DNA from: a virus
Virus record (IMG/VR): IMGVR_UViG_3300046820_001502
Location: 1-56,790 of that record
Length of the DNA stretch: 56,790 bases
Direction: 5' to 3' (one strand)
Each line of letters starts with the position of its first letter. Position 1 is the stretch's first letter. The position numbers and the translations under genes were made by a program. Under the pieces are notes generated by a model that was not told the origin of the DNA, searched no databases, and saw only the letters and a list, made by a program, of their open reading frames with translations. This document shows positions 22,807-54,045 of the stretch, piece after piece.

Positions 22807-23649
22807 TCAACAGATGTATTCTGAATTTTGTAAAACTCCGTTTATAAATTGGATCACAGCAAATGATCCATCTAACCACATTATGAAATATCCTGTGTCG
22901 TTTGTCGGATAACAAGTGGTTTCATTTGCAAATGCTAGTGACCCAACAGTTGGTCCATTAACATTAAAATATCTATCATAATATCCATCATAATTACATA
23001 GAGTGTTTCTTAAACAATATAACGCCTCACATGCCCTATCCCTATCGTTTGTAAAATCACCGTGTAAGGTAGTTGAATAGATCAACTCTTCGTATCTTGG
23101 GTGAGGACAAATCGGTTGGTTAGGCGTTTGTGTTGGAGTTAAAGTTGGTGTCGGTGTTGGTGTTACCGTACTAGTTGGTGTAGGACTTATAACTGGTTCT
23201 CTTGTCGGTGTTGGTGTTGGTGATGGAAGTGGGGTAACACAACAATTATATTCTAAAACATAACAATTATTGTATGGTAGATCAGTCGCAATATAACTCT
23301 CAACAATATTAATAAATAATGGCTCTCTTATTGGTAAAACTAAAGTACCTGTGTCATTTATAAACATAAACTGACCTTCATACCTACCAATTTTACTTGT
23401 ATCTTGTTGAGTAAATCTATAATAAACATAATACTCAGGAGATGCATTTGGGTCCATGTCTATTTTTTCAACAAATCCAGCGGACTTTGTATAGACTTTT
23501 GGGATACCGTTGTCGGTATTTACCATAGTAAAAAAAATAGAGGATCTCTCTATGAACTCCATCATAGAGTTATAACTCTCAATACCATCATTAACAACTT
23601 GAAGTTTAAGTAAGGGTAGAGTTGAATTTTGACCTATTGTAAATTCCAT
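22807..23649 (-). CDS. Modular tail adhesin: conserved N-terminal dock + Pro/Thr linker + short tip
   Basis: 280 residues in three parts. Residues 1-138 (MEFTIGQNSTLPLLKLQV..., ending CYVLEYNCC) match the N-terminus of the protein encoded at 26656-28218, including the blocks YYVYYRFTQQDTSKIGRYEG versus YYVYYQFTPFDTKVVGRYKG and the C-Y-V-x-[ED]-x-x-C-C end. This is probably a docking module on the tail. Residues about 139-185 are a linker of (S/T)PTPT repeats. The C-terminal 95 residues, with a PRYEELIYSTTLHGDFTND start and four to five Cys, form a different small domain, possibly the receptor-contacting tip. A TATTTAT element lies 14 bases upstream. Adhesin role is inferred from architecture. 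Confidence 0.65.
   Translation of the reverse strand: MEFTIGQNSTLPLLKLQVVNDGIESYNSMMEFIERSSIFFTMVNTDNGIPKVYTKSAGFVEKIDMDPNASPEYYVYYRFTQQDTSKIGRYEGQFMFINDTGTLVLPIREPLFINIVESYIATDLPYNNCYVLEYNCCVTPLPSPTPTPTREPVISPTPTSTVTPTPTPTLTPTQTPNQPICPHPRYEELIYSTTLHGDFTNDRDRACEALYCLRNTLCNYDGYYDRYFNVNGPTVGSLAFANETTCYPTNDTGYFIMWLDGSFAVIQFINGVLQNSEYIC
23112..23232 (-). repeat. Pro/Thr linker repeat
   Basis: Reiterated CCN ACN codons (ggtgttggtgt on the plus strand) encode (T/S)PTPT units in the adhesin at 22807-23649. Confidence 0.8.
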
Positions 23650-26655: not shown

Positions 26656-28218
26656 TTAATGTTGATATTCTATTCCATCACCATTTTGAGCGGTTAATAT
26701 GTTACCATTCTGAGCTAATATAAAGAATGGTTCTGTTGGTGTAGGTGTAATAGTTGGTGTAGGTGTAATAGTTGAAGTAACACTCGGTGTTGGGGTTGGT
26801 GTTTGCGTTACCGTTACCGTGGGGGTTATGGTTGGTGTAGGTGTTGGTGGTAATATTATTTCATATGACACGCATACCTGTTCTCCCGCAACAAAATCAA
26901 CAGGAGATGATTGTATTAATATTAATTGAGATGTTGGCCCACCAAAACCACCATTTATAAAACCACCAAAATCAGGATAAAATGAATTTTGATCTCCTTG
27001 ATATATTGAGGTATTACCATTTTGACTGAATGATATTAAATAATTGTTTGATAATAATTGATCATAGTAATCATATAAATTATTACCTAAATCATCCACA
27101 GATGCAAAATCAACTCCATTAATATCAAAAGTGTTTGGGTTAAGTATACCTTCAACGGAACTTGGATTTGTGAATTCAGGGAATATTATATTACCAGATT
27201 CAGGATAAAAATAAGGTAATGTTATTAAATTAAATAAACCTCCGCCACATGTTAATACTTCTGGTGTTAAATCATTATTTGGTATTATTTCAGAACCTAA
27301 ACCATCGTTTGGTATTTGATTATCATTTAAATCATTTAAAGGTATAAATCCACCATTTAAATCATTATTTGGTATAAATCCACCATTTAAATCATTATTT
27401 GGTATAAATCCACCATTTAAATCATTATTTGGAATATTATTACCGGTAAGATCGCCATTAGGTATATTATTACCAAGTAAATCATTATCGGGTATATTTT
27501 GATCACCCAAATCATTATTAGGTATTACCAAATACTCAAAATCATTTGGTGGTGCAGGAGTACTTGTTGGTGTTAAAGTTGGGGTCGGTGTAGGTGTTGG
27601 TGACGATCCTTCAGTTGGGGTCGGTGTTAAAGTTGGAGTCGGTGTAGGTGACGATCCTTGTGACGGTGTAATTGAGACAGTAACCGTTGGGGTTGGTGTT
27701 TGAGTTACAGTTGGTGTTGGTACAATAGTAGTTGTTGTAGTTGTTGGTATTACAGTTGTTGTGGTTGTTGTAATTGGTGGTACAGGGGGTATTATTCCTC
27801 CTGATTTACAACAGGGAAAATCAACAACATAACAGCTTTGATATTCCATATCATCCAGAATAAAACTGTCCGTTACATTAATATAAATTTCTTGATTTAA
27901 TGGTAAGGTTAGAATTCCTGTTTCATTTCTAACTAAAAACTGGCCTTTATATCTACCAACGACTTTAGTATCAAAAGGTGTGAATTGATAATAAACGTAA
28001 TATTGTAGTTCTTCATTATTATTGAAATCTTGTTTTTCCTTTAATCCCGCAGGTCGAGAAGTTATTTTAGGAATACCCGTTACGGTGTCCACCATGGAAA
28101 AAAAAATATCCGTACCCGAAAGGAACCTCATGGTTCTATCGTAGTCACTTCTCCCATCTTTAATAATGTTAATTTTTAGAACAGGAAGGGTCGCATTTTT
28201 TTTGATAAAAAATTCCAT
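26656..28218 (-). CDS. Modular tail adhesin with two Pro/Thr linkers and IPNNDL repeats
   Basis: 520 residues from the ATG at 28218; a TTG at 28233 is in frame but falls inside the TATTTAT element, and the ATG aligns with the start of its paralogue at 22807-23649 (MEFF versus MEFT). Residues 1-145 are the shared docking module, ending CYVVDFPCC. A Thr/Pro linker follows (about 150-230, with Thr runs of six and PTPTPT units). Next are eight to nine copies of a 10-residue unit, IPNNDLNGGF and variants (about 232-317), a beta domain (about 325-455), a second Pro/Thr linker (about 460-495) and a 23-residue tail FFILAQNGNILTAQ.... The decapeptide array may form a beta solenoid. It lies at the end of the sugar-enzyme block. 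Confidence 0.65.
   Translation of the reverse strand: MEFFIKKNATLPVLKINIIKDGRSDYDRTMRFLSGTDIFFSMVDTVTGIPKITSRPAGLKEKQDFNNNEELQYYVYYQFTPFDTKVVGRYKGQFLVRNETGILTLPLNQEIYINVTDSFILDDMEYQSCYVVDFPCCKSGGIIPPVPPITTTTTTVIPTTTTTTIVPTPTVTQTPTPTVTVSITPSQGSSPTPTPTLTPTPTEGSSPTPTPTPTLTPTSTPAPPNDFEYLVIPNNDLGDQNIPDNDLLGNNIPNGDLTGNNIPNNDLNGGFIPNNDLNGGFIPNNDLNGGFIPLNDLNDNQIPNDGLGSEIIPNNDLTPEVLTCGGGLFNLITLPYFYPESGNIIFPEFTNPSSVEGILNPNTFDINGVDFASVDDLGNNLYDYYDQLLSNNYLISFSQNGNTSIYQGDQNSFYPDFGGFINGGFGGPTSQLILIQSSPVDFVAGEQVCVSYEIILPPTPTPTITPTVTVTQTPTPTPSVTSTITPTPTITPTPTEPFFILAQNGNILTAQNGDGIEYQH
26728..26850 (-). repeat. Pro/Thr linker repeat (C-terminal)
   Basis: Second PTPT-coding low-complexity segment of the adhesin at 26656-28218. 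Confidence 0.75.
27270..27530 (-). repeat. 30-base tandem repeats encoding IPNNDLNGGF units
   Basis: Eight to nine 30-base units. Three consecutive copies near 27340-27430 are almost identical (ggtataaatccaccattt and following); outer copies have diverged, a pattern of recent expansion from the centre. Confidence 0.85.
27555..27790 (-). repeat. Thr/Pro-rich linker repeat (N-terminal)
   Basis: Two runs of six Thr and many PTPT units, with two copies of an EGSSPTPTPT-type unit, encoded by reiterated ACN and CCN codons. Confidence 0.8.
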
Positions 28219-28232
28219 TAAACCTTTTATCA

Positions 28233-28239
28233 ATAAATA
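28233..28239 (-). promoter_or_regulatory. TATTTAT late-promoter-like element
   Basis: TATTTAT on the coding strand, 14 bases before the ATG at 28218, the same spacing as its paralogue; this supports that start over the upstream TTG. Confidence 0.5.
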
Positions 28240-28245
28240 CTCCGT

Positions 28246-30624
28246 TTAGAATTCTTTTCTTAAATTTCCTTCGTAGAACTCAAACCTATCATGTTCTGTT
28301 GGTGTCATCAAAAGAACTCCGGCATTAATTTTACCTTGTTTCATCTCTTTATAACAGTGAGACATTAAAGTTTGCTCGTAAGGATAAGTGAACTTAGTTT
28401 CGATATAACATTTGTAATTACCTTCTTGTGAAAGAATTATTGGCCAGTTAGACAAATAAACTTCACCTGTCGCATATGGAATACCGTCATAAATTTTTAT
28501 GTTTTTATATTCTAAATAAGGTGCGTTTGGATCTTGTCCGTTTACAGGTAATTTTGGATTGTCAGGCCAATGCTCATCTCTATATGCTTTGTCTACATTA
28601 TACCAAGCCCACTGTTTTTCATGACTACCATAAAACTCAGTAAAGTTGAACTTTAAAAAATCAAAGTTTTCTTTTCTTGTAATTTGTAAAACTTTTTCAT
28701 ATAAATTATTTGTTTTTCTTAAAAACCCATTTCTACAAGATGTTTCAGCTCCACCGTAGAAAAACATATCATCCTCAAAGAAAATATAATAATCCATGTC
28801 AGATTCATTAAAATGTTCGGCAACAAACACTCTACCACCTGTAATACCTATGTTATCTTTTTTAATGTGCTCAAATCCGTATTGTTCACAAAGTTCTAAG
28901 TATCGTGGTGTGGTTGATAGATCTGTTGAGTTATTTAGTAAAAACTTTTTAGTTCTTGTAAGAAAATCATTATCATATAACTCCATAGATCGTATTAGAG
29001 TTTCAAATTGTTTAGGACTATTAAATGTGATTACGTATAAACCAACATCTCCATTCTTTTTGATTTTAATCGGATCTTCTTTTCTAAAACTTTTAATAAC
29101 TACTGAATCATTTTTTACGTCCTCAAAAAACTTATAAAGTAATCCATTTGATTCGATTTCTACATAATCAATATTTTTTGGACTCGTATAAGTCATGATT
29201 GAAAATAAACTTTCTTCAGTACCCATCAAACCTCTGTTAAGTGTTGATTTCATTAGATCATAATACAAAGTATTCATTTCTCTAATCAAAGGTTTTGGTC
29301 CACCAAAAAATCCACCCCTACAAACTTTATTAACTCGTTGACCAACAAGTTCAGTCATAGAATTAATTTCAAAACCGTGGATCTCGTTGTCGGCTTCATA
29401 TGGGAATGCAACAAATGTAAAATTATCAAATAAGTTGTCTATTTTTGGTAATACATTATCGTGAGTAAAGTAACCTATATTAACTGTGTTGGCAATACCG
29501 GCATCTAACCAATATAATTTTTGGGAATTGAATTTGTCTAAAATAACCGCATCGTGCAGTAAAAACATTTTTGACATTACAAGAGGGTTATACATTTCTA
29601 ATTTGGCCTGTGTCGAATCTTTTAACCAACCCGCCAAATTATACCAATCAGGATTTGTTCTAATTTCTTGTATTTTATCGTAAAACTCTCCTTTGAACCA
29701 AGATTGATCTCTTAAAATGAATTGAGTATTTTCATGACTTCTTTTTGTAAATACAAAACTTTCTAATTCTGCATCACCAAAAATTATCATATTACAAGGA
29801 ATGTCTAAGAACTGTAAAAACTTTTCTAAATAATGTTGATACGATCTTGCCCATCCTTCAGTTAACCCATCTCTTTTGATATCCCATAAACCTGTAACTA
29901 ATGTAAGTTTTGAGTCTATTTTTTTTACAACTTCTTTTGGTTCTAAAGTTGCCTTAATTTCATCGTGTACGTCTTTTCTAATCGCATCAATATCCATATT
30001 ACCCAATATCTCATAAAGATAACCAGCCTCTGTTAACTTGTTTGTGATGTTAGTTTTTTCTTCGTCAGTCATATTACACCACTCTAACCGAATTAAACTT
30101 GGTCTAAACTTTCCTAAATCAATTTGTTTAAAGATTGTATAATCGTGTCCTTCAGTATCAACAGATAAAACATCAAAATGATCTATTCCGTGTTTTTGTA
30201 CTAATGTGTCCCAAGTAATACAATTAACCTCAACGTCAACGGCATATTTTTCAACAACTTCTCTATCACCTTCACTACCCATACCATTTTTAGATGGATC
30301 AATTACACTCATACCATAAAAAGCAGGATGAACTAAACCTTCGTCAACAACTTCGATTGGGATTGTTTTCATAGTTATAGTTCCATTAAAATCACTTACC
30401 GCAGAGTTTTCAAATTTGTTGCCAGGGTTATTACTCTTATGATTAACTAATCTCTCAAAATGAGGTTTCATAGGCTCAACATATAAAACATCCGAATTAT
30501 AGATTTGGGCGTATCCACTCATACTATCAAACATAACACCATCCATTGCTCCGATGTTAATCATAAATAATTTTTGGCCCTTTCTACCGTAATAATGTAA
30601 TACCTTATCAAAAAAATCTTCCAT
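28246..30624 (-). CDS. Three-domain enzyme: FkbM methyltransferase + HtrL/YibB-type + glycosyltransferase
   Basis: 792 residues. Residues about 1-210 are an FkbM-type SAM methyltransferase: INIGAMDGVMFD (22-33) for SAM binding and VLSVDTEGHDYTIF, the D-x-E-G-x-[DE] FkbM signature. Residues about 235-500 (LTLVTGLWDIKRDG, YWLDAGIANT, RGGFFGGP) resemble the HtrL/YibB family of putative glycosyltransferases. Residues about 520-792 have VGLYVITFNSPKQFETLIRS and FFEDDMFF (about 615), a GT2-like arrangement with a D-x-D metal site. The product probably transfers and O-methylates sugars. It follows the next HtrL gene by 9 bases and is the last enzyme of the block before an adhesin gene. Acceptors are unknown: phage virion protein or host glycan. 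Confidence 0.7.
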   Translation of the reverse strand: MEDFFDKVLHYYGRKGQKLFMINIGAMDGVMFDSMSGYAQIYNSDVLYVEPMKPHFERLVNHKSNNPGNKFENSAVSDFNGTITMKTIPIEVVDEGLVHPAFYGMSVIDPSKNGMGSEGDREVVEKYAVDVEVNCITWDTLVQKHGIDHFDVLSVDTEGHDYTIFKQIDLGKFRPSLIRLEWCNMTDEEKTNITNKLTEAGYLYEILGNMDIDAIRKDVHDEIKATLEPKEVVKKIDSKLTLVTGLWDIKRDGLTEGWARSYQHYLEKFLQFLDIPCNMIIFGDAELESFVFTKRSHENTQFILRDQSWFKGEFYDKIQEIRTNPDWYNLAGWLKDSTQAKLEMYNPLVMSKMFLLHDAVILDKFNSQKLYWLDAGIANTVNIGYFTHDNVLPKIDNLFDNFTFVAFPYEADNEIHGFEINSMTELVGQRVNKVCRGGFFGGPKPLIREMNTLYYDLMKSTLNRGLMGTEESLFSIMTYTSPKNIDYVEIESNGLLYKFFEDVKNDSVVIKSFRKEDPIKIKKNGDVGLYVITFNSPKQFETLIRSMELYDNDFLTRTKKFLLNNSTDLSTTPRYLELCEQYGFEHIKKDNIGITGGRVFVAEHFNESDMDYYIFFEDDMFFYGGAETSCRNGFLRKTNNLYEKVLQITRKENFDFLKFNFTEFYGSHEKQWAWYNVDKAYRDEHWPDNPKLPVNGQDPNAPYLEYKNIKIYDGIPYATGEVYLSNWPIILSQEGNYKCYIETKFTYPYEQTLMSHCYKEMKQGKINAGVLLMTPTEHDRFEFYEGNLRKEF

Positions 30625-30633
30625 ATCTAATTT

Positions 30634-31521
30634 TTAAATTCCTAATTCCGTCTCAAAAAAATGAACGAAGTGTGTTTTATTTTTAATTGATTCTCTATCG
30701 AAAACCGGAGTTGTGAGCCAAAAGTCTTCATGATACCAAGTATCAAAACTGAATGTTTTAAACATATCAGGATTTTCGAACTCTAAGTTTGTAATCATAC
30801 CTTCGTGATTTAATATATGATTTTCATTTAAACATAAATTACTTATTATATCAAATTCTTGTATGAACCATTTTATTTTTGAAATGTGTCCTCCCAAAAT
30901 ACCACCAACAGACATATGTTTATAATCATTATTATTTTTATAAACTTTTCTAATCTCATTTGGGTTATGTGAAAACATGGTATTTGCCAAGTTGATTAAT
31001 TTATCGCCAACCCAATTATTTATCTTTGGGAATAATTCAGGACAAAATATTTTTGTAAATGAATAGTTTTCCCAATCTCGAGATAAACCAGTAATCTTAT
31101 CGGAGTAAGGATTATATTTTAAGGTAAACAATCCTCTGTGAGATAAACCACAATCAATCCAATAAATGTAGTCATAGGATTCGTCGTATTCTTTTGAAAT
31201 AAGGTATATTTTATTCCAATCAACTTCATGGTAGAAATTAAATTGTTCGTTAGATTTTTTAATCTCTAACATTCTTTCCGTTTTTGGGTAGTCTTTAAGA
31301 TTTGAAATTTTAATCGTTACGTTATTTAAATTAAATTCCTCACAATATTTTTGTAACAAATCAAATTGAGTTTCATTACAATAACATATAATTTCATTAT
31401 TCATGTTATTTAATGTCCTTAAAGAATGTAAGTATCTTTCTTGTCTTGCAAATGACTCGTGACCAAAAAAAGGAAACCCAATAATATCGGTATAAAAGGC
31501 GGTTACTAGCTTTGTCTTCAT
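30634..31521 (-). CDS. HtrL/YibB-family putative glycosyltransferase
   Basis: 295 residues, starting KLVTAFYTDIIGFPFFGHES, then DYIYWIDCGLSHRG (about 137-150; the W-x-D-x-G site of the family) and HMSVGGILGG (about 201-210), corresponding to the GGFFGG block in the composite neighbour. This matches the WlaTC/HtrL family found in lipopolysaccharide and capsule clusters, presumed to be a nucleotide-sugar transferase with a GT-A fold. The donor cannot be told from sequence. Its ATG overlaps the carbamoyltransferase stop by 4 bases, indicating translational coupling, and 9 bases separate it from the three-domain enzyme, whose middle segment is a paralogue. Confidence 0.7.
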   Translation of the reverse strand: MKTKLVTAFYTDIIGFPFFGHESFARQERYLHSLRTLNNMNNEIICYCNETQFDLLQKYCEEFNLNNVTIKISNLKDYPKTERMLEIKKSNEQFNFYHEVDWNKIYLISKEYDESYDYIYWIDCGLSHRGLFTLKYNPYSDKITGLSRDWENYSFTKIFCPELFPKINNWVGDKLINLANTMFSHNPNEIRKVYKNNNDYKHMSVGGILGGHISKIKWFIQEFDIISNLCLNENHILNHEGMITNLEFENPDMFKTFSFDTWYHEDFWLTTPVFDRESIKNKTHFVHFFETELGI

Positions 31522-33095
31522 ATTCTTTTTCTAAAATAGTAATCACCTAATAAAAGACAATCCATTTCTGTTTTATCGTAAACCGAAATCGCATCACTAT
31601 ATCGAGAAAGTATTGGTTTTCCATTAACGTTGAACGATGTATTTAATAATACCCCTATACCTGATTGTTTCTCAAACTCAGTTAATAAATTGTATAACCA
31701 AGGGTTTTGTTCTTCAGTTACGGTTTGTACTCTTGCTGTACCATCTACGTGTGTAATTGAAACTAATTTTTCTCTCCACTCTTCTTTTACAGTAGGACAA
31801 AATCCCATCCACTTACTTTCACCCTCAAAATTAAAATATTTAGATACGTCTTCTAATTTACATACAGGGGCAAAAGGTCTATACCACTCTCTGTTTTTTA
31901 CTTTAGCATTTAATATATCTTTCATGTTATCATAAGCAGGATTACAAATAATACTTCTATTCCCTAAAGCTCTCGGACCATGTTCTGCATTACCTCTGAC
32001 AACACCAACAATTCTTCCATCTACTAAATCCTTAACTAACATTTCTGTCTCTAAAGGTAAAGCGTGTCTTTCCTCAACATGAGACATTAATGTATGTTTA
32101 TCTAAAATTGGAATACCTGCGTATGTAATGTCGATAGCCTTTTCAGGTTTAATATGATTTAACATCATTCCTGTTGCAATTCCACAATCATTTGGATTGG
32201 GTGGTACAAAAACTGGTCTATCAAGTTCTTGGTGTAACTTTGTGTTTAACAATATGTTTAATGCACAACCACCAACAAGTATTAAAGGTATATTTGGGTA
32301 TTGATCTAAAAATGGTATAGTTAACTCCATAAACACATTCTCAAATGCAATCTGAGAAGTTTTAGCAACATCCCAACCTATTTGACCCGTTAATCTATTT
32401 TCAAAATCAAAAGAAAGACCTGTTTGTTCTGCCAACTCATTTAAATAACCTAAGTAATTATTTCCGTCAGGTTTTTTTCTATAGTATTCTTCGAAGTGTG
32501 GCAACCAATCTTCATTAACATTACCATAAGAACAAAGTCCCATAATTTTTCCTGAGTAAACTAAATTACCAATATTAAGTGCCGGTTCTTTTGTAATATC
32601 ACCCAAGTAATCACCAAATGACATATATGGAAACCCTAAATCAGTATTAAATTTTTCAATAAGGTTTATGTTATTTCTGTCTTCCGCATGATACACATTA
32701 AAGAATCCATCATTACCTCCTCCATCAAATGAAATAATTAAAGCTTCGTTATAATCTGTTTGGTATAAACCACAAGCAGCATGGCTTAAATGGTGTAGTG
32801 AATTAATATATTCTTTTGCCGGTATTAACTCTTGATAATGAACCTTTGTTGTGTGTTCGATTGTATCCGCATTTAAGTAATAACATTTATCATATTCTGA
32901 AATTCCATATTCATCTTTAATAAATTGTAAAATATGTTTTAACAAAAAGGGTCTTGAGTATGAAATTAAATATTGTGCGTAACCTGCGTTTTTTTGGGTA
33001 AGAAATCTTTCGACTTCTATTACCACAATAATTTTTCCTTGATCCTCAACAACAACCGCAGAATTGTGAGATCCGTAAAATGAAATGTTTGCCAT
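31518..33095 (-). CDS. Carbamoyltransferase (NodU/CmcH family)
   Basis: 525 residues. The N-terminal Kae1-like domain shows HHLSHAACGLY (101-111) and ISFDGGGNDG (121-130), and in the middle LVGGCALNILLN, the metal/nucleotide pocket of this family. The C-terminal YrdC-like-to-transfer part has EHGPRALGNRSI, RPFAPV and FNVNGKPI. Members such as NodU, CmcH and TobZ use carbamoyl phosphate and ATP to place a carbamoyl group on a sugar or antibiotic hydroxyl. In this block it likely decorates a glycan made by the neighbouring transferases. It is 10 bases downstream of the GT60-like gene and overlaps the next by 4. No late-type TATTTAT precedes it. Confidence 0.9.
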   Translation of the reverse strand: MANISFYGSHNSAVVVEDQGKIIVVIEVERFLTQKNAGYAQYLISYSRPFLLKHILQFIKDEYGISEYDKCYYLNADTIEHTTKVHYQELIPAKEYINSLHHLSHAACGLYQTDYNEALIISFDGGGNDGFFNVYHAEDRNNINLIEKFNTDLGFPYMSFGDYLGDITKEPALNIGNLVYSGKIMGLCSYGNVNEDWLPHFEEYYRKKPDGNNYLGYLNELAEQTGLSFDFENRLTGQIGWDVAKTSQIAFENVFMELTIPFLDQYPNIPLILVGGCALNILLNTKLHQELDRPVFVPPNPNDCGIATGMMLNHIKPEKAIDITYAGIPILDKHTLMSHVEERHALPLETEMLVKDLVDGRIVGVVRGNAEHGPRALGNRSIICNPAYDNMKDILNAKVKNREWYRPFAPVCKLEDVSKYFNFEGESKWMGFCPTVKEEWREKLVSITHVDGTARVQTVTEEQNPWLYNLLTEFEKQSGIGVLLNTSFNVNGKPILSRYSDAISVYDKTEMDCLLLGDYYFRKRI

Positions 33096-33105
33096 TATTA
33101 TATTT

Positions 33106-34350
33106 TTATAAATTTCCTGTTATTCTATCACACCAACCTTTAGATGTTGAGTAAGGCCAAACAACCCAATATTTAGGTTTTTTAGTTGTATTGAATTCTC
33201 TCCATACTTTACAGTATCCATCAGGATCTCTAAAGAAACCGTTTATTTCATTAATATCTGCATCTCTTCTATATAAAGTTTCATCATTTTCATCGTGAAA
33301 AGCAACTACCCAATATTCATAATCTTTTTCAGGAACACTCACATAATTTACGTCTATACAGTGTTTGAAGATTGTTGAAAATGATTTCTTCCATTCCTCT
33401 TCTGTCTCGAAGTTATAGGTGTTTGGTGGATATTTTTTGTCAATTGTCTCTTGTTGGATTCCTCTTGACTCAAACAAAACACCAGCATATTTTTCATAGT
33501 CACTTACGGTTCTTTCAGTTCCAAACCATAAAGAATAATCTCCATCAAATTTTTCACCGTCAACTCCTAAAAGTTGTCTGTTTTTAATATGACAAGCTGT
33601 GTTTCTTAAATGCCAATCTTTGTCATCGTCCCACTGTTTAGTTCTACCTTTTCTTGTGTATTCGTGCCAAATTAAAACTTTGTGTGGATGGAATAAATCA
33701 TAACCATATGTATAAGCTCTTACTGAAATTGAAATTTCTTCTCCGTGAAAATAAAATTCAGGATCATGTTGAACTTCAGTTGAAAATTCACCTAAAGTAA
33801 AACAATAATGTGCTGAGTAAAATCTTGCAGGAACAGGTTGTTTCATTTCTTGCCAACCTGGAATTGATTCAGGCAAGAAGAATACAACACCTTCAGGTGT
33901 AAATCTATCAAATGCCATTCTCCATGGTTCTCTAACACGACCTTCAGGATCATTATCAGGATCAAATGATGAAACATATCCTGTTAAAAGAGGTTTTTTA
34001 TGTCCTTTCTTTTGAAGTTGTTTAATCATTTTAATCATTTCATCATCCCAATTCTTTTCGAATCTCATGTGAGAATCGATTTGAAGAGTATACTCCTCAC
34101 CACCATACAGTTGTTGGACTTGATGTCTTGCCCAACAAACCCCTTTTGATTCTGTGTAAGGAATATTTAGGATTCTAAATCTTTTATCTTTTTCATACTT
34201 AGATAAATCATCAAAACCATCTTCAGGATGGAATTGTCTTGCAACACCAATAATTACATTTTTTGGTCTTTTTGCGTTTTCCAACATATTTTCTATTGTT
34301 GGTATTAGTTGAGGGTCGCGATACGCAGCGATTTGTACAAATATTTTCAT
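33106..34350 (-). CDS. GT60-type (GlcNAc) glycosyltransferase acting on polypeptides
   Basis: 414 residues. It starts KIFVQIAAYRDPQLIPTIEN, then GVCWARHQVQQLYGGEEYTL and QIDSHMRF (D92-S-H94, the D-x-H/D-x-D-like metal site), followed by FYSAHYCFTLGEF and YFHGEEISISVRAYTYGYD. These are the marks of the GlcNAc (PF11397) family, whose characterised eukaryotic members are Dictyostelium Skp1 hydroxyproline GlcNAc transferase and Trypanosoma mucin Thr-GlcNAc transferases (CAZy GT60). The family assignment is confident from motifs; the phage acceptor is inferred. Because the phage also encodes many Thr-rich linkers, its own adhesins are plausible substrates. The gene follows the 100-residue small protein gene by 37 bases. 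Confidence 0.8.
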   Translation of the reverse strand: MKIFVQIAAYRDPQLIPTIENMLENAKRPKNVIIGVARQFHPEDGFDDLSKYEKDKRFRILNIPYTESKGVCWARHQVQQLYGGEEYTLQIDSHMRFEKNWDDEMIKMIKQLQKKGHKKPLLTGYVSSFDPDNDPEGRVREPWRMAFDRFTPEGVVFFLPESIPGWQEMKQPVPARFYSAHYCFTLGEFSTEVQHDPEFYFHGEEISISVRAYTYGYDLFHPHKVLIWHEYTRKGRTKQWDDDKDWHLRNTACHIKNRQLLGVDGEKFDGDYSLWFGTERTVSDYEKYAGVLFESRGIQQETIDKKYPPNTYNFETEEEWKKSFSTIFKHCIDVNYVSVPEKDYEYWVVAFHDENDETLYRRDADINEINGFFRDPDGYCKVWREFNTTKKPKYWVVWPYSTSKGWCDRITGNL

Positions 34351-35749: not shown

Positions 35750-36676
35750 CTACACTATTTCCAATACTTTGTTATAAACCGCAAATATTGTTGGGTGACA
35801 CTCAAATGTTTCTTTTCTTTCTAAACAATTAACTAAAGATGGGATGCCTTGTATTGATCCCCACTCTCTAACACCATATTTTATGTTGGAAGCGCAATTA
35901 AGACCACAACCACCAACAACATAATGGTATTTGTATTGTTGCGATCCTCGTCTAAATGGTGATCTAAACTCAGGATTTATAGAGCTACCTAATTGAATTA
36001 TTTCAGCATCTGTTGTTCCTGCCAAATGTAGTAAACCAGAATCCATGGTTATGAAACACATACTATTGTGAATTAAATGCCAAGCCTGATCCATATCCGT
36101 GTTGTTCATTAAATTTAAACCTAAGTTGATTGGAAAATTAAAAACAGGTTTATCAACATTAGATCCGCCAAGTTCTGAAGAATCTTTACCAATTGACACA
36201 ACCGCAATTCCTTTTTGATTTAAAAGTTTCGTTAACATTTGCCAATTTTTTGCATCCCAAGTTCTTGAGTTCCAATTTTGAACAGGATGTATTAAAACGT
36301 ATTTTTCAGGTAGACCCTCTATTTTTTCAATTGATTTTGGTATGTAATCCATCCCCATCTCATCTTTGGTTAACATAAACCCAAGATTGATTGCATGAAA
36401 TTGTCTAATATCCATGGCGTTATGTTTATAACAAACCCCATTTGGGTGATATCCAACATTAAATGAAACAAAGACTTCATGTGTTTCTTTTAATTCATCT
36501 GTAACTTCAGTAAAGATTTGATCAACACAAGGATTATTAGAAAATAAATATGGGTGGTGTGTTGCGACAGATATTTTTTTACCGTAAGAATAGTAAAGTT
36601 TTCTTAAAGTTGGTGTAACTGCTAAGGTATCACCTAACGCTCTACAACCTAATACATCAATACAAACATTTTTCAT
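35750..36676 (-). CDS. Heptosyltransferase-like glycosyltransferase (GT9 fold)
   Basis: 308 residues with a GT-B arrangement typical of GT9: LGCRALGDTLAVTPTLRKLY near the start (G-D-x-[LI] motif), HPVQNWNSRTWDAKNWQML (about 145-163; the H/S-x-x-x-x-x-[KR]-x-W donor region) and ITMDSGLLHLAGTT (about 214-227; D-S-G-x-x-H). The C-terminus carries GGCGLNCASN and later VNCLERKETFEC; a four-Cys arrangement like the iron site of TibC-type protein heptosyltransferases is possible, though spacing differs. It would move a heptose or similar sugar from a nucleotide donor. It is the first enzyme of the minus-strand block and is divergent from the 974-residue composite, which also holds a GT9-like domain. 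Confidence 0.8.
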   Translation of the reverse strand: MKNVCIDVLGCRALGDTLAVTPTLRKLYYSYGKKISVATHHPYLFSNNPCVDQIFTEVTDELKETHEVFVSFNVGYHPNGVCYKHNAMDIRQFHAINLGFMLTKDEMGMDYIPKSIEKIEGLPEKYVLIHPVQNWNSRTWDAKNWQMLTKLLNQKGIAVVSIGKDSSELGGSNVDKPVFNFPINLGLNLMNNTDMDQAWHLIHNSMCFITMDSGLLHLAGTTDAEIIQLGSSINPEFRSPFRRGSQQYKYHYVVGGCGLNCASNIKYGVREWGSIQGIPSLVNCLERKETFECHPTIFAVYNKVLEIV

Positions 36677-36742: not shown

Positions 36743-39667
36743 ATGAAAAAGATTAAATTATTGTATTTAACACCTCATCTATCAACAGGTGGGATGCCAC
36801 AATTTGTTTTAAAACGAATTCAAGAACTCCAAAAATTTAAAGACAAGATTGAAATATTTTTAGTTGAGTATTCTCAATTCAGTTCAACTTACGTTGTTCA
36901 AAGAAATGAGATCATTAAATTATTAGGTGAAAACCATTTTTTTAGTTTAGGAGACACTACTGATGTAGATAGAAAATATCAACTAATGGATATTATTAAA
37001 AATAATGATATTGATATTATACATTCAGAGGAGATGATGGAAGGTTTTGAAAGTTTTAATAAAATCCCATTACCGTTATTAAATCAAATTTATTCTAATG
37101 ATAGAACTTGGAGAATTGTTGAGACTTGTCATAATATTTGGTTTAACCCACAAACACATAAAAAGTTTAATCCTGACGCATATTCGTTTGTAACACCATA
37201 CCATTTAGAAGAAACATTCTCTAATGAGAAACCGATGAAATTTTTATCACTATATCCGATTGAAGATAAAGTTTCTGAAATTTTAAAGGAGTGTGAGATT
37301 TATGGGGACTTTAATCAAGTACCTTTAATTAAAAAAATACAAATAAGAAATGAACTTGGTTTGGATATGTTTAAAACTCATGTTTTAAATGTTGGGTTAT
37401 GGACAAGTGGTAAAAATCAAGGTGAGGGTGTGAATGTTGCAAAAGAGTTAATCGAATCAAACCCTGATATTGAATTTCATTTTATTGGAAACCAAGCTCC
37501 GAACTTTGAGGATTATTGGGGACCGATCATGAATGACTTACCATCAAATGTAAAAGTTTGGGGTGAAAGAAATGATGTTGATAAGTTCATGCAAGCATGC
37601 GATGTATTGATGTTTAATTCAACTTGGGAATGTAATCCATTAGTTATCCGACAATCAATTGGATATGGAATGAAAATCCTATCAAGAAATCTACCACAAT
37701 ACATGGGTATGTTTGACGGATACATCACTCCGATTGAAGGGGATGTCAAAAATATATCAAAACAATTGGTCAGTCTTATTGAAAGTAATGGGGTTTACTC
37801 GATATTACCTGATGATAAATTTGGTGAAGATTTATTATCGATGTATAAAATTGTAATGAACGAGAATACCACAGAAAACAAACCACTAACCAAAGATTAT
37901 ACTTTTATTAAACATTATGTAACCCAACCTTATTTTGAGGTACAAGGGACTACTCAAAACAAATTAAACATTAAATATTTTGATGAAAACAATAATGTGG
38001 TTTATCAAAATGAATTACCTATCAATAGTTGGGTAAAACTAAATAAAGAATATTTTATTAAGTGGAGAACTACGGTTGAGGAAAACGGTCAAGTCATATA
38101 TGATGAAACCTTAAACTTAAAAGATAAAAGAGTTTATATTTCATTTGGATCTAAGTCTTTGGGTGATACGATGGCTTGGGTTCCTTATTGTGAAGAGTTT
38201 AGAAAAAAACACAACTGTAAACTAATCGTTTCTACATTCCTTAATGGGTTATTTAAAGATCAATATCCTGAAATAGAATTTATTGAGCCAGGTGAGGTTG
38301 TACCAAACATTCACGCACAATACAGATTAGGTTGGTATTACGACGATAAAGGTGAATTTGATAGAAACAAACACCCACACGACTTTAGAAAAATGCCGTT
38401 ACAAAAAACAGCATCTGATATTTTAGGATTAGAATATACTGAAATCAGACCAAAGTTAAAATTACCTAACACACCAAAAAAGAAAAAAGTTGGTATCGGT
38501 ATTCACTCAACAGCACAATCTAAGTATTGGAACAACTCAACAGGTTGGCAAGAAGTAGTTGATTATTTGAGATCATTTGGTTATGAGTGTATGATTTATT
38601 CCAAAGAAAATGATGGGTATATGGGTAACCATCACCCAAATGGTGTAACCAAATTTGTTGGTGGGACATTACAAGATGTAATTGATGATCTATCAACTTG
38701 TGAATTTTTTATTGGTTTAGGATCAGGTTTATCTTGGTTAGCTTGGGCATGTGAACTACCTGTTGTTTTAATTTCAGGGTTTAGTGAGAAATGGGCGGAA
38801 ACAAAATTAGACACATATAGAGTTATAAATGAAAATGTTTGTCACGGATGTTTTAATTCGGAAAGATTAGACGCTGGTGATTGGAATTGGTGTCCTTTAC
38901 ATAAAAACACAGATCGGATGTTTGAATGTACAAAACAAATAAATTCCGATATGGTTATAAATGAAATAAAAAAAATTATGAATAATACTAAAGAAGTTAC
39001 GCAAAGTAAGTTAGAAGGATTTGATTGGGGTGGAAAAGATAATTGGTATAGTGATGCCGCAATACAAGAAATTGAAAATGATAATATGTACGATAGATTT
39101 TTTACCGTTGAGGAAGGTGATATTGTTGTGGATTTAGGAGCGTCAATGGGCCCATTTACCTATTCTATTTTACCAAATAGCCCTAAACAATGTTATGTTG
39201 TTGAACCATTATCTTATCAAGTTGATGTGTTACATAAAAATGTTGGGGGAGATAATGTGAAAATTATTCGAGGAGCAATTACCGATAAAAAGAAAATTGA
39301 GATTACTTGGGATGGTATAACTGAAATTGCACCAACATTTACCTTTAAAGAGTTTTTGGATGAAAATAATATTGATAAAATTGATTTTTTAAAATGTGAT
39401 TGTGAAGGTGGTGAGTACGACGTATTCCAACCAAGTAATATTGAGTTTTTAAAAACCATACCAAAAATTGTGACTGAATTCCACATGAGAGTTGATGAGA
39501 ATTTTCATAACTGTAAGTTCAGATGGTTTAGAGATAATATACTACCACAATTTAATAACTACCAAGTTTTTTCTGTGGATGGTGTTGACATCAAATGGGA
39601 TTTATGGAATGACCACTTTTTAGAATACTATTGTGAAGTAATCATTTATATTGACAATAGAAAATAA
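36743..39667 (+). CDS. Composite protein glycosyltransferase: GT4 + TibC-like O-heptosyltransferase + FkbM methyltransferase
   Basis: 974 residues. Residues 1-370 are GT4-like: STGGMPQFVLKRIQEL for donor-domain start, then NVGLWTSGKNQGEG and NSTWECNPLVIRQSIGYGMK. Residues about 460-740 resemble bacterial autotransporter O-heptosyltransferases such as TibC/AAH: SFGSKSLGDTMAWVPY, IHSTAQSKYWNN, GLGSGLSWLAWA, and four Cys in VCHGCFN...DWNWCP...MFEC (C700, C703, C717, C729; C-x2-C-x13-C-x11-C), like the iron-binding site of TibC. Residues about 770-974 are an FkbM methyltransferase (VVDLGASMG and KCDCEGGEYDVF). TibC-type enzymes put heptose on Ser of adhesin repeats, so a protein acceptor is likely. 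It is divergent from the GT9 gene and faces the collagen fibre with a shared terminator. Confidence 0.75.
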   Translation: MKKIKLLYLTPHLSTGGMPQFVLKRIQELQKFKDKIEIFLVEYSQFSSTYVVQRNEIIKLLGENHFFSLGDTTDVDRKYQLMDIIKNNDIDIIHSEEMMEGFESFNKIPLPLLNQIYSNDRTWRIVETCHNIWFNPQTHKKFNPDAYSFVTPYHLEETFSNEKPMKFLSLYPIEDKVSEILKECEIYGDFNQVPLIKKIQIRNELGLDMFKTHVLNVGLWTSGKNQGEGVNVAKELIESNPDIEFHFIGNQAPNFEDYWGPIMNDLPSNVKVWGERNDVDKFMQACDVLMFNSTWECNPLVIRQSIGYGMKILSRNLPQYMGMFDGYITPIEGDVKNISKQLVSLIESNGVYSILPDDKFGEDLLSMYKIVMNENTTENKPLTKDYTFIKHYVTQPYFEVQGTTQNKLNIKYFDENNNVVYQNELPINSWVKLNKEYFIKWRTTVEENGQVIYDETLNLKDKRVYISFGSKSLGDTMAWVPYCEEFRKKHNCKLIVSTFLNGLFKDQYPEIEFIEPGEVVPNIHAQYRLGWYYDDKGEFDRNKHPHDFRKMPLQKTASDILGLEYTEIRPKLKLPNTPKKKKVGIGIHSTAQSKYWNNSTGWQEVVDYLRSFGYECMIYSKENDGYMGNHHPNGVTKFVGGTLQDVIDDLSTCEFFIGLGSGLSWLAWACELPVVLISGFSEKWAETKLDTYRVINENVCHGCFNSERLDAGDWNWCPLHKNTDRMFECTKQINSDMVINEIKKIMNNTKEVTQSKLEGFDWGGKDNWYSDAAIQEIENDNMYDRFFTVEEGDIVVDLGASMGPFTYSILPNSPKQCYVVEPLSYQVDVLHKNVGGDNVKIIRGAITDKKKIEITWDGITEIAPTFTFKEFLDENNIDKIDFLKCDCEGGEYDVFQPSNIEFLKTIPKIVTEFHMRVDENFHNCKFRWFRDNILPQFNNYQVFSVDGVDIKWDLWNDHFLEYYCEVIIYIDNRK

Positions 39668-39691: not shown

Positions 39692-39725
39692 AAAAACCCC
39701 CATCTTTTCAGGTAGGGGTTTTTTT
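39692..39725. terminator. Bidirectional terminator between convergent genes
   Basis: AAAAACCCC (39692-39700) pairs with GGGGTTTTT (39715-39723) around a 14-base loop, in the 56-base gap between the composite transferase and the giant fibre. It has T runs on both strands and overlaps the fibre's stop region. Confidence 0.75.
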
Positions 39726-41000
39726 ATGCTGGACAAGCGTGTGCCGCAATACAAGTCGTACAGTCACTATATTGTGCGGTTATTGTTCCTACTGATACGG
39801 TTGCGGGCCCAGTACTAGATGAAACAAAGTCAAAACATACACCAGTAAGAGGATCATAAAATCCACTGAATCCCATACCACCTTGAGCTAATACAACTTG
39901 GTTAGTGTTTAAACAACAGTTATAAACTTCGTAATAATTACAAGGGTTGGATTCTAAACACTTTTCACAAGTATCATAAGGAGTATCAGTGTAAAAATTA
40001 CTTGTTGGTGTATCTGTCGTTATTGACACACAAACATAACAGTTATCACTTATTACTTCAAGATAACTTAATCCAATTGTAAATACTCCATATGCGACTT
40101 GTGTTACGCCAGTTTCACAACAAGCCGAGAATAAATAATAGTCAGGACAGCCACCAACATCTAAACGACATTGTGTACAATCATCAAATTGTTTGGAGTT
40201 ATAAATTGGTACTGGCCAACTTACAGTACCCGTTAAGTCCCAAGAAGTAACTTCCCAACAAACACCATTTGTGTCTGTAAATATAGTCCCTGTTTGTGGG
40301 ACAAACGCTTGAGTTGCATATACCTCAACTTGTAAAGGGTTACAACAATTTCTTATTGTAACATAAACAACTTCAGGACAAGGATTTGCTGTTTTACAAG
40401 CTTCACATCCACCAAAATATTGGCTAGCTAAAGATATACTATAATTTGTTGGTAATTGATTTACTTGTGTATTAATTACCCAACAAAAACCATTTGTGTC
40501 TATCCAAATTTCTCCAATAGATACAGTTCCGGCTGGTATTGATATGATTTCTTGAGGTAAAACCTTACAACATGAATTAATAAACCAAAACTCAGGACAC
40601 TCATTTGTGGTAATACAGTCATCACAATTTGTGTATCCCGTTGTTCCAATTGTAATTGTTGGTGCTGTTACAGGTGCCCCGGTTCCAGATGTAACATTCC
40701 AACACAATCCATTATCATCAACAAAAGTATCACCAACTACTAAATCTAACGAACCTGTAACATATTCAAGTCCAGTAACACAACAACTATCAATTACCGC
40801 ATTATCAGGACAAGGGTTACTTGATATACAAGAAGAACAACTTGCGTAATTGGTCACTAATGTTCTAATACTATTTGGTGCTGCAAGTGTAGTACTTTCT
40901 ATTTCCCAACAGTTATCTTGAGCATCACTCCAAAATGTTCCTATCGTTAAACTACTACCAACAATAATTTCAGTTACAGTTGGTTCACAACAGTTTCTTA
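39724..41000 (-). repeat. Six Cys-rich modules at the fibre tip
   Basis: Six units of about 65-75 residues, each [NSA]-C-C, then about 25 residues, G-x-C-[WYF], then about 25 residues, C-x2-C-x5-C-[PN]. Units are diverged (for example NCCEPTV..., SCCVTGL..., ACCETGV...). Disulphides or metal sites are likely; I do not recognise the module. Confidence 0.8.
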
Positions 41001-44000
41001 ACACATAAAATTCACCATCAGGAATTGTACAATCTTTTTCATAATTTAAGGTATATGTAAATCGTGGTTCTTGTGTAGGAGTATCAGCATCTTGAACAAT
41101 ATTAAAACCAACAACATAGAATATGTCACACGCATTATAATATTGTGTAAATGTATGTGAAACATCAAAACATAAATAGTTTGATGTCATATTGAAATAT
41201 GCTGGAGATATTACAGTTGTTAAAGGAATTAAATCTCCTAAATCATTACATTGATATAAATAAAGTGCCACAACAAAAGATGGTTGGTACGAAGATAGGT
41301 TAATCTTCCACCATACATTACCACAAAGTCTTATACTATCTCCAGCTCTAACATTAACTGGTGATGGAACACCTAAAAAGGCTGTATCACCTCTAAGGGG
41401 GTTCGCACTAAATCTTATAGGAACTCCTATATCCCAAGGACAACCATTCCAACCACATTCGGAACTACCCATCCAAAGAAAATTTGTGTTTGTGTCTGGC
41501 TGTGGGGTTAGTTTAAATTTACCCGAATTTGACGCTATTAATGTATTATCTATGTTACAACTTCCACCTCCACCAGTACAAGTTAATGTTACATTTACAG
41601 ATCCACTTGTTCCTGAGGTTGCGGTTATACAAGTTCCGATAAAATTAATACTTGTTGCACTTGATTGAACTAAATTTCCTTCGTCGAATATAGAAATTGC
41701 ACCTCCTCCGCCGCCACTTGTACCTGAAGATCCGTTTGTACCATTTGTTCCCGAAGTTCCAGGTGATCCTGTTGCCCCATTTGTTCCGTTTGTTCCTGAC
41801 GTACCATTTGTTCCGTTAGTTCCTGAAGTTCCCGGTGATCCTGTCGCCCCATTTGTTCCGTTTGTTCCTGACGTACCATTTGTTCCGTTAGTACCTGAAG
41901 TTCCCGGTGATCCTGTCGCCCCATTAGTTCCGTTTGTTCCCGAAGTCCCATTTGTTCCATTCGTACCTGAAGTTCCCGGTGATCCTGTCGCCCCATTAGT
42001 TCCGTTTGTTCCCGAAGTCCCATTTGTTCCATTCGTACCTGAAGTTCCCGGTGATCCTGTTGCCCCATTTGTACCATTAGTTCCTGAAGTACCATTTGTA
42101 CCATTAGTTCCTGAAGTTCCCGGTGATCCTGTAGCCCCATTTGTACCATTAGTTCCTGAAGTACCATTTGTACCATTAGTTCCTGAAGTACCAGGTGATC
42201 CTGTCGCCCCATTTGTTCCGTTTGTTCCTGACGTTCCATTTGTACCATTAGTTCCGTTTGTTCCATTAGTACCCGAAGTCCCATTAGTTCCATTCGTTCC
42301 TGAAGTCCCATTAGTCCCGTTAGTTCCATTTGTTCCTGACGTACCCCTTGTTCCTGACGTTCCATTAGTTCCGCTAGTACCATTTGTTCCATTTGTTCCT
42401 GATGTACCGTTCGTTCCTGAAGTTCCATTTGTTCCGTTAGTTCCATTGGTTCCCGAAGTTCCGTTTGTACCGTTGGTACCAGAAGTCCCATTTGTTCCAT
42501 TAGTTCCATTTGTTCCGCTAGTACCATTCGTACCGCTTGTCCCATTCGTACCATTCGTTCCTGATGTTCCATTTGTTCCGTTGGTCCCGTTAGTACCTGA
42601 CGTTCCATTTGTACCACTAGTACCATTAGTTCCGTTAGTTCCGCTAGTACCATTAGTACCGCTCGAACCATTTGTTCCATTTGTTCCTGAAGTACCATTT
42701 GTTCCATTAGTACCCGATGTTCCGTTGGTACCGCTAGTTCCGTTAGTTCCATTAGTCCCTGACGTACCGTTGGTTCCTGAAGTTCCATTAGTTCCATTTG
42801 TACCACTTGTTCCATTTGTACCATTAGTTCCTGAAGTTCCGTTTGTTCCATTTGTACCATTTGTCCCGTTGGTCCCTGAAGTCCCGTTAGTACCTGAAGT
42901 ACCATTCGTTCCTGACGTACCGTTTGTTCCATTAGTACCTGATGATCCGTTTGTACCGTTAGTACCTGAAGTTCCATTTGTCCCGCTAGTTCCGTTAGTA
43001 CCATTAGTTCCTGATGTACCATTAGTTCCGTTTGTCCCTGAAGTACCATTAGTGCCTGATGTTCCGTTTGTTCCATTTGTCCCGCTAGTTCCGTTTGTAC
43101 CATTGGTTCCGTTTGTTCCGCTAGTCCCGTTAGTACCGTTGGTACCACTTGAACCATTTGTTCCATTAGTTCCCGACGTACCGTTTGTACCTGAGGTTCC
43201 GTTAGTACCATTCGTACCGCTAGTGCCATTTGTTCCATTCGTACCGCTAGTTCCATTTGTACCATTAGTTCCCGAAGTTCCATTGGTACCTGATGTTCCG
43301 TTAGTCCCATTAGTACCACTAGTTCCATTCGTACCGTTTGTTCCGCTAGTACCGTTGGTTCCACTTGAACCATTTGTTCCATTCGTCCCTGAAGTGCCGT
43401 TTGTCCCATTTGTTCCATTTGTTCCCGAAGATCCGTTTGTTCCGTTAGTACCTGATGTTCCATTGGTTCCGTTAGTTCCATTCGTCCCTGATGTACCATT
43501 TGTTCCTGATGATCCGTTTGTACCGTTAGTACCTGATGTTCCATTAGTTCCCGAAGTCCCATTTGTACCGTTGGTACCACTTGAGCCATTAGTTCCGTTC
43601 GTTCCGCTCGTACCGTTTGTTCCTGACGTTCCATTTGTACCATTCGTTCCATTTGTACCATTTGTTCCTGAAGTTCCATTGGTTCCCGAAGTTCCGTTGG
43701 TTCCATTCGTACCTGAAGTTCCATTAGTACCATTTGTTCCGTTAGTTCCTGAAGTTCCGTTAGTTCCGCTCGTACCATTTGTTCCATTAGTTCCATTAGT
43801 ACCGTTGGTTCCTGAAGTCCCATTTGTTCCTGAAGTTCCGTTGGTTCCACTAGTACCATTTGTACCGCTCGTACCATTAGTACCCGATGTTCCATTAGTT
43901 CCGTTTGTTCCATTAGTTCCGTTTGTTCCCGATGTACCATTAGTACCACTTGTACCATTCGTTCCATTAGTTCCTGAAGTACCATTAGTTCCCGATGTCC

Positions 44001-53614: not shown

Positions 53615-54043
53615 TTAAATTGCAAAATTACTACATGGTATAAAACTTCCTGATGCCGTAGGCGTAACTGTTGGCGTTAAAGTATGTATTGGGGTTCGAG
53701 TAGGAGTTGGTGTTGGTGTACTTGAAGAACAAGGTAAAGGTGATGTTGTCGGACTTGGTGTTGGTGTTGCAGTTGGTGTAGGTGTTTTAGTCGGTGTATG
53801 TGTTGGGGTTGTTGTTGGTGTAGGTCTTGGTACATTTAAAAAATAAGGACAATCTGTACCAACTACTAATATTGTGTATGTTCCAAAAACTTCTCTTGGT
53901 GGAATTAGTAATGAAGGATCAAATGTAAATGGTAATGTAACTTCCCCAAGATTGATCACCACATCACTATTATCCGGTTTAAATAAAACTTCCGCCAATT
54001 CACCCTCATTAAAAACACTATTGATTATAATATTTTGACTCAT
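53615..54043 (-). CDS. Small adhesin with docking module and long Pro/Thr linker
   Basis: 142 residues from the ATG at 54043 ([11 protein letters not shown]), chosen because it follows the upstream stop by 2 bases; a longer version would overlap the previous gene. Residues 1-75 align with the docking module of the 683-residue protein at 23969-26020 (V-x-F-x-P, I-x-L-G-x-x-T-x-P-F, P-x-x-x-x-G-x-Y, Y-x-L/F-N-V). The remaining half is a Thr/Pro linker ([18 protein letters not shown]-type) with two Cys (PLPCSSS and FIPCSNF) and ends almost directly after it, without a tip domain. The gene may therefore be truncated, or the linker itself may be the functional (for example glycan-bearing) end. Confidence 0.65.
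53645..53830 (-). repeat. Pro/Thr linker repeat
   Basis: PTPT-coding low-complexity DNA filling about half of the gene at 53615-54043. Confidence 0.8.
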
Positions 54044-54045
54044 AA

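Follow-up and report, generated by a model that had tools for sequence, protein, structure and literature searches.

A glycosyltransferase of the GT60 type is encoded by an open reading frame (ORF) at positions 33106-34350 of the virus record IMGVR_UViG_3300046820_001502, and this enzyme probably belongs to a phage-encoded mucin-type O-glycosylation system that acts on the phage's own Thr-rich fibre proteins. The record is 56,790 bases long, was analysed whole and is referred to below as the window; matches to tail sheath, tube and hub proteins identify its source as a contractile-tailed phage. The original prediction, made from the sequence of the window without database searches, had raised the idea of a polypeptide acceptor, and this idea is supported by the profile match, the predicted fold and the association of GT60 with Thr-rich genes across genomes.

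The GT60-type gene and its catalytic site

The gene and its putative active site are located as follows.

33106-34350, minus strand: GT60-type (PF11397) glycosyltransferase, 414 residues, ATG start (Pfam, predicted fold)
34060-34083, minus strand: QIDSHMRF, DxH metal/nucleotide-sugar site, residues 90-97 (invariance in relatives)

Both the membership of the ORF in GT60/PF11397 and its catalytic site are well supported by sequence comparison. The ORF matched the Pfam profile PF11397 at 233.1 bits (E 8.4e-69; curated cut-off 21) in two stretches (positions 2-43 and about 97-348 of 352), and matched phrog_24687, a 'glycosyltransferase' family in PHROGs, at 553 bits. The GT60-type identity first proposed from the QIDSHMRF block was thus borne out, and the family found by the profile search, which the original prediction had named as a possible source of refutation, was PF11397/GT60 and not a non-polypeptide one. 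Residues D92, S93, H94, R96 and F97 were unchanged in all 46 aligned relatives; G203, E204 and E205 (GEE) and R233 were likewise invariant in the 46 rows of the alignment, and H229 was kept in 45 of them, the remaining row having an X. The site reads DxH instead of DxD (D92-S93-H94, 46/46 rows). The DxH motif is common to GT27 and GT60, and the 2 families have been put in one clade whose shared activity is polypeptide Ser/Thr O-glycosylation (PMC7185993). GT60 enzymes of T. cruzi initiate the O-glycans of mucin-like proteins (PMC9472816), and the GT60 member Gnt1 modifies a hydroxyproline of Skp1 (PMC6939170).

The predicted fold resembles that of mucin-initiating enzymes

An AlphaFold (AF2) model of the window GT60, built from the alignment of 46 relatives, had a predicted local distance difference test score (pLDDT) of 92.7 and comprises a GT-A catalytic domain (residues ~1-320) and a C-terminal β-sandwich (residues ~325-414). 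Structure prediction had been suggested as a check of the initial assignment, and the model proved to be nearest to the polypeptide N-acetylgalactosamine (GalNAc)-transferases of GT27. In a Foldseek comparison with the Protein Data Bank (PDB), rows 1-28 were all polypeptide GalNAc-transferases (E from 9e-11) and row 29 was S. aureus TarS; with VIA-align, the top 29 rows were all polypeptide GalNAc-transferases (Z 19.6-22.6), and the next protein had a Z of 17.8. The best VIA-align superposition on GT27 (Z 22.6) extended over 279 residues with a root mean square deviation of 3.6 and about 12% identity, and a phmmer search of PDB sequences with the ORF retrieved neither a GT27 chain at E ≤ 1 nor any other useful match. 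On the basis of these models, a GT-A fold related to that of the mucin-initiating GT27 enzymes is well supported. When modelled alone, the C-terminal 90 residues formed a small separate β-sandwich (pLDDT 95.6) with no Foldseek match at E ≤ 0.001 and no clear fold relative; its best VIA-align rows were weak matches to fibronectin type III (Z 7.7).

GT60 genes are associated with Thr-rich genes across phages

Two scans yielded 119 viral GT60 loci, of which 39 were collapsed at 97% identity to leave 80 representatives. Loci L001, L002, L085 and L086 were excluded from this count, and the genome contigs (L087-L100) and isolates (L083, L084) were meant to stay apart from the viral loci. A protein with at least 30% Thr over 60 residues was termed Thr-rich. 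The gene immediately upstream of GT60 was Thr-rich in 43 of 77 loci (3 of the 80 representatives had no upstream ORF and were omitted), where the remaining ORFs of these loci would predict 11.4, and was collagen-like in 5, 3 of which were also Thr-rich; 75 of the 77 loci had a Thr-rich or collagen-like ORF somewhere. After collapse at 85% into 31 clusters, the upstream gene was Thr-rich in 14 (5.0 expected) and a Thr-rich or collagen-like ORF was present in the locus in 29. The density of Thr-rich ORFs was 10.14 per 100 kb in GT60 loci (149 in 1470 kb) versus 0.28 (2 in 707 kb) in 80 control loci chosen by a tRNA word, and among ORFs of at least 300 residues, 114/566 were Thr-rich in GT60 loci versus 2/165 in the controls. 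The link between GT60 and Thr-rich genes is thus more than local chance, and the association supports Thr-rich polypeptides as the predicted class of acceptors.

The longest upstream protein has 3315 residues and 230 Thr-Pro (TP) pairs (L065). In some relatives (L005/L006, L103 and L116), a collagen-like gene lies directly upstream of GT60; for L005, this gene has a match to the Pfam family Collagen. Four large records contain Thr-rich or collagen-like ORFs both close to GT60 and elsewhere. GT60 is nearly universal in the phage lineage: from 80 polymerase loci, 37 long records (at least 40 kb; one duplicate omitted) were retained, and 29 of these polymerase-anchored records contained PF11397, the other eight being pieces of 44-98 kb.

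Presence and absence in jumbo phages and bacteria

The co-occurrence was also followed in jumbo phages. Fourteen records with GT60 (XacN1, RAS14, CM1 and eleven environmental ones) were compared with 12 jumbo phages that are related to XacN1 by tail sheath and lack PF11397. T-P-T-x-T-P-T-x-T sites numbered 6 to 127 in each of the 14 records with GT60 and were present in 0 of the 12 without, whereas the pattern read in reverse, used as a control, occurred 0 to 2 times in any of the 26 records (Fisher P = 1.0e-7, or 7.4e-7 minus two near-duplicates; both values are indicative, as the records share ancestry). In the reverse direction, contigs of at least 80 kb were taken at one locus per record from the 80 tract loci listed (18 retained) and from 80 control loci (13 retained); PF11397 was found in 11/18 TP-tract contigs versus 0/13 control contigs (P = 4.4e-4). 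A diverged PF11397 match (L625, G852:C1:15212-15970; E 2.5e-37) was seen within an 820-residue open frame of a virus record that spans 310 kb and contains Thr-Pro tracts.

XacN1 and RAS14 were at one stage taken as counter-examples, the genes around their GT60 not being Thr-rich; this was dropped when Thr-rich ORFs were found elsewhere in both (13 in XacN1, positions 66001-320000, and 7 in RAS14, each scanned in pieces). Proteomics of XacN1 indicated 'at least two glycoproteins', and its annotation includes two glycosyltransferases, ORF334 among them (PMC5852040). ORF334 is the XacN1 homologue of the window GT60 (46% identity). Among bacteria, PF11397 matches occurred in 11/395 Bacteroidota genomes (8 above cut-off, one strong) and in 28/398 Pseudomonadota genomes.

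Candidate acceptors in the window

The window encodes the following candidate or possible acceptors.

39724-49302, minus strand: collagen-like fibre protein, 3192 residues with 788 Thr, candidate acceptor
49421-53536, minus strand: collagen-like fibre protein, 1371 residues with 357 Thr, candidate acceptor
53615-54085, minus strand: Thr-Pro tract protein, 156 residues (13 TP; 40% Thr over 60 residues; phrog_15511), candidate acceptor
26656-28233, minus strand: adhesin-like protein with Thr6 runs and Thr-Pro tracts (25 TP; 45% Thr over 60 residues), candidate acceptor
22807-23649, minus strand: adhesin-like protein that resembles 26656-28233 at the N-terminus and has 9 TP in a short Thr-Pro tract, weaker candidate acceptor
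9259-12594, minus strand: tail sheath (phrog_23) with a Thr-run insertion, possible acceptor

The larger collagen-like protein contains 675 unbroken Gly-X-Y triplets (residues 505-2529; 435 GTN and 207 GTS), and the smaller one contains 383 (residues 79-1227; 117 GTN, 106 GTD and 102 GTS). In both, Thr occupies the X position and the repeats are nearly without Pro. N-x-S/T sequons, a by-product of the Gly-Thr-Asn repeats, number 443 and 124, respectively. Asn-linked glycosylation of these sequons was considered and rejected, no cytoplasmic N-glycosyltransferase family having been found among the Pfam-scanned window proteins. The phrog_15511 family (function unknown) matches Thr-Pro tracts of many unrelated phage proteins (L465, L466, L042 and the window protein 26656-28233).

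The Thr runs that had first drawn attention to the sheath and the adhesin were found where expected: the Thr runs of the sheath are 5, 6 and 7 residues long (codons 11632-11724) and the adhesin 26656-28233 has two runs of 6 (27727-27771). They are not expected from composition, since a run of at least 6 Thr appeared in 0 of 1000 shuffled sheath proteins and 2 of 1000 shuffled adhesins. The description of these proteins as lying beside the GT60 gene holds loosely, the start of the adhesin being 4.9 kb downstream and the sheath about 20 kb off. As acceptors, the Thr runs of the two proteins are weaker candidates, because in relatives it is Thr-Pro tracts and Gly-Thr-x collagen-like proteins that are associated with GT60. 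The N-terminal domain of the adhesin has relatives in 71/80 viral representatives.

Elsewhere in the window, an ORF of at least 1632 residues (3-4898, minus strand) runs past the left end of the record. A 712-residue protein (16274-18412, plus strand) that adjoins helicase and head-tail genes carries Fe/Mn superoxide dismutase domains (PF02777, PF00081) and an N-terminus that weakly matches SprT-like metallopeptidase.

The GT60 cassette and neighbouring enzymes

The GT60 gene is surrounded by the following genes.

31518-33095, minus strand: NodU-like O-carbamoyltransferase (PF16861, PF02543), directly downstream of GT60
30634-31521, minus strand: conserved cassette protein, 295 residues (relatives in 31/80 representatives and in XacN1 and RAS14)
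28246-30624, minus strand: FkbM methyltransferase, HtrL_YibB and a C-terminal region, 792 residues (PF05050, PF09612)
35750-36676, minus strand: GT9 (heptosyltransferase-type) glycosyltransferase (PF01075)
36743-39667, plus strand: GT4, autotransporter-type protein O-heptosyltransferase (TIGR04414) and FkbM methyltransferase, 974 residues

The YibB-type part is present in 76/80 representatives and its C-terminal part in 74/80; in 72 of the 80, the YibB part lies at most 6 kb downstream of GT60 on the same strand. The C-terminal region of 28246-30624 has no Pfam match and is possibly a GT-A enzyme, and the 30634-31521 protein matched no Pfam family. The carbamoyltransferase is also a neighbour of GT60 in XacN1, RAS14 and the cultured bacterium Jiulongibacter sediminis JN14-9, yet it occurs in only 5/80 viral representatives. 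The order GT60, carbamoyltransferase, 30634-like protein and YibB is retained in XacN1 and RAS14.

TIGR04414 matched residues 408-745 of the 36743-39667 product at 297.3 bits (curated cut-off 200), which by this profile makes the domain a second protein-directed enzyme of the window block; this TIGR04414 (BAHT) part is present in 15/80 representatives. The three-part gene and the larger collagen-like gene are transcribed towards each other.

The J. sediminis cassette is located on a 1.3 Mb contig; its GT60 is 57% identical and its carbamoyltransferase 69% identical to those of the window. Its locus (L091) has an FkbM-YibB fusion of the window architecture and stands beside a 262-residue Thr-Pro protein. 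A second PF11397 gene (L091:7942-8862, minus strand) is divergent from the first across the Thr-Pro protein.

Proposed mechanism and alternative explanations

We propose that the GT60 product would work in the cytoplasm as a metal-dependent, retaining polypeptide transferase with a GT-A fold, of the type found in GT60 and GT27. Late in infection, it would move an N-acetylhexosamine, most likely N-acetylglucosamine (GlcNAc), from a uridine diphosphate (UDP)-sugar to Thr residues of phage fibre and adhesin proteins; the acceptors would be Gly-Thr-Asn/Ser collagen-like fibres and Thr-Pro tracts in the window and long T-P-T-x 'mucin-like' domains in most relatives. The glycan could then be extended and capped by the YibB-type and GT9 transferases, the NodU-like carbamoyltransferase and the FkbM methyltransferases, and the outcome would be an extended, protease-resistant, sugar-coated particle surface. 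The donor, linkage, exact acceptors, glycan structure and purpose of the window system are what we infer.

Several observations weigh against this proposal: (i) the two genes immediately upstream of the window GT60 are not Thr-rich; (ii) the Thr-rich ORFs of XacN1 and RAS14 lie away from GT60, and adjacency is therefore not general; (iii) 7/18 TP-tract contigs show no PF11397, which we attribute to incompleteness or other enzymes; (iv) the Fisher values overstate independence, because the jumbo phages with GT60 represent few independent lineages; (v) a class of ~530-residue PF11397 proteins in Pseudomonadota (L364-L391) has a Thr-rich neighbour in L385 only (loci of ~2-4 kb), and because this class is nearly without Thr-rich neighbours, the presence of PF11397 is by itself no indication of Thr-rich acceptors; (vi) the excerpted text of PMC5852040 does not name the XacN1 glycoproteins and gives no assay of its glycosyltransferases; and (vii) for phage members of the GT60 family, no activity, linkage or glycopeptide has been seen.

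The main rival explanation, which we consider unlikely, is that the cassette makes or alters a host surface glycan (lipopolysaccharide, capsule or exopolysaccharide), for example for a superinfection block, and that Thr-rich fibres simply happen to be frequent in such phages. GT9, GT4, carbamoyltransferase and FkbM enzymes, all present in the window according to Pfam, are typical of surface polysaccharide loci, and the J. sediminis cassette is near ORFs that were read by eye as UDP-glucose dehydrogenase and UDP-glucuronate decarboxylase. By contrast, polypeptide transferases are the nearest structural matches of the GT60 model, TP tracts track GT60 over the 26 jumbo records, and a protein-directed TIGR04414 enzyme is located in the same block.

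It is less likely still that GT60 has other polypeptide targets, for instance host proteins, loops of structural proteins (the Thr-run insertion of the sheath being an example) or, in the manner of the Skp1 branch, hydroxyproline. Such targets would suit a family that includes the Skp1 hydroxyproline transferase Gnt1 (PMC6939170) and a sheath with Thr5, Thr6 and Thr7 runs; however, a Pfam scan of 20 window proteins revealed no prolyl hydroxylase, the Gly-X-Y tracts are nearly without Pro, and it is Thr-rich tracts with which GT60 is associated across genomes. DNA hypermodification, in which the carbamoyltransferase and glycosyltransferases would act on modified cytosine, is very improbable: some phage carbamoyltransferases can produce 5-carbamoyloxymethylcytosine when accompanied by a relative of thymidylate synthase (PMC8670742), and XacN1 and RAS14 have both genes, but among 19 chosen large GT60 records the carbamoyltransferase occurs in 2 and thymidylate synthase in 8, the cassette is also found on a bacterial chromosome, carbamoyltransferases of unmodified contigs adjoined glycosyltransferases (PMC8670742), and the fold is that of a polypeptide transferase.

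Glycosylation of the phage's own Thr-rich fibres by the GT60 system would amount to lineage-wide virion glycosylation that uses the fold of animal mucin-initiating enzymes and has visible candidate acceptors, and it would give a biochemical meaning to collagen-like and Thr-Pro phage proteins, most of which are of unknown function today. A broader proposal, for which we see the chances as evenly balanced, is that true mucin-type O-glycosylation exists in phages and some free-living bacteria, with GT60/GT27-type initiation on T-P-T-x 'phage mucins' and Gly-Thr-x collagens and with its own capping enzymes. This would imply a portable glycoprotein system, mucin-type initiation beyond eukaryotes and a sugar coat for jumbo phages. 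The predicted virion glycosylation system could be tested in three sequenced isolates and one cultured bacterium. A literature search found no paper on phage GT60 or Thr-rich phage glycoproteins (titles were in part the basis of judgement, and most subscription journals were outside the search), and a search for carbamoyltransferase, virion and glycan led to chloroviruses only.

Comparison with known systems

The GT60 α-GlcNAc-transferases T. cruzi TcOGNT1/2 and Skp1 Gnt1 share with the window enzyme the PF11397 profile, the DxH motif and a predicted transfer to hydroxyl amino acids, and Thr/Pro-rich mucin-like acceptors are proposed in both cases. Unlike them, the window enzyme is phage-encoded, presumably cytoplasmic and equipped with an extra C-terminal β-sandwich; its candidate acceptors are T-P-T-x tracts and Gly-Thr-x collagen-like fibres, and its cassette includes carbamoyl- and methyltransferases. 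The GT27 GalNAc-transferases of animal and Toxoplasma mucin-type O-glycosylation have the closest solved fold and also share DxH. The window enzyme appears to differ from them in its low identity (~12%) and in the small β-sandwich modelled at its C-terminus, where GT27 enzymes have a ricin-type lectin domain.

Few systems of phage virion glycosylation have been described, to our knowledge. It is already known as such from mycobacteriophages (PMC12363180), and a GT60-based system would be a variant of it. In mycobacteriophages, capsid and tail tube proteins are reported to be glycosylated (Freeman et al. 2023, as cited in PMC12363180); the shared feature would be that phage-encoded glycosyltransferases act on virion proteins, as is predicted for the window phage.

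XacN1 has GT60 and the carbamoyltransferase in the window order (ORF334/ORF333), Thr-rich proteins and reported glycoproteins (PMC5852040). By contrast with the window, its Thr-rich genes are scattered, and no collagen-like Gly-Thr-x ORF was found in the 254 kb examined. The J. sediminis locus differs from the window in being cellular and in having a second PF11397 gene and a single Thr-Pro ORF, but it keeps GT60, carbamoyltransferase and FkbM/YibB fusion in the window order beside that Thr-Pro protein.
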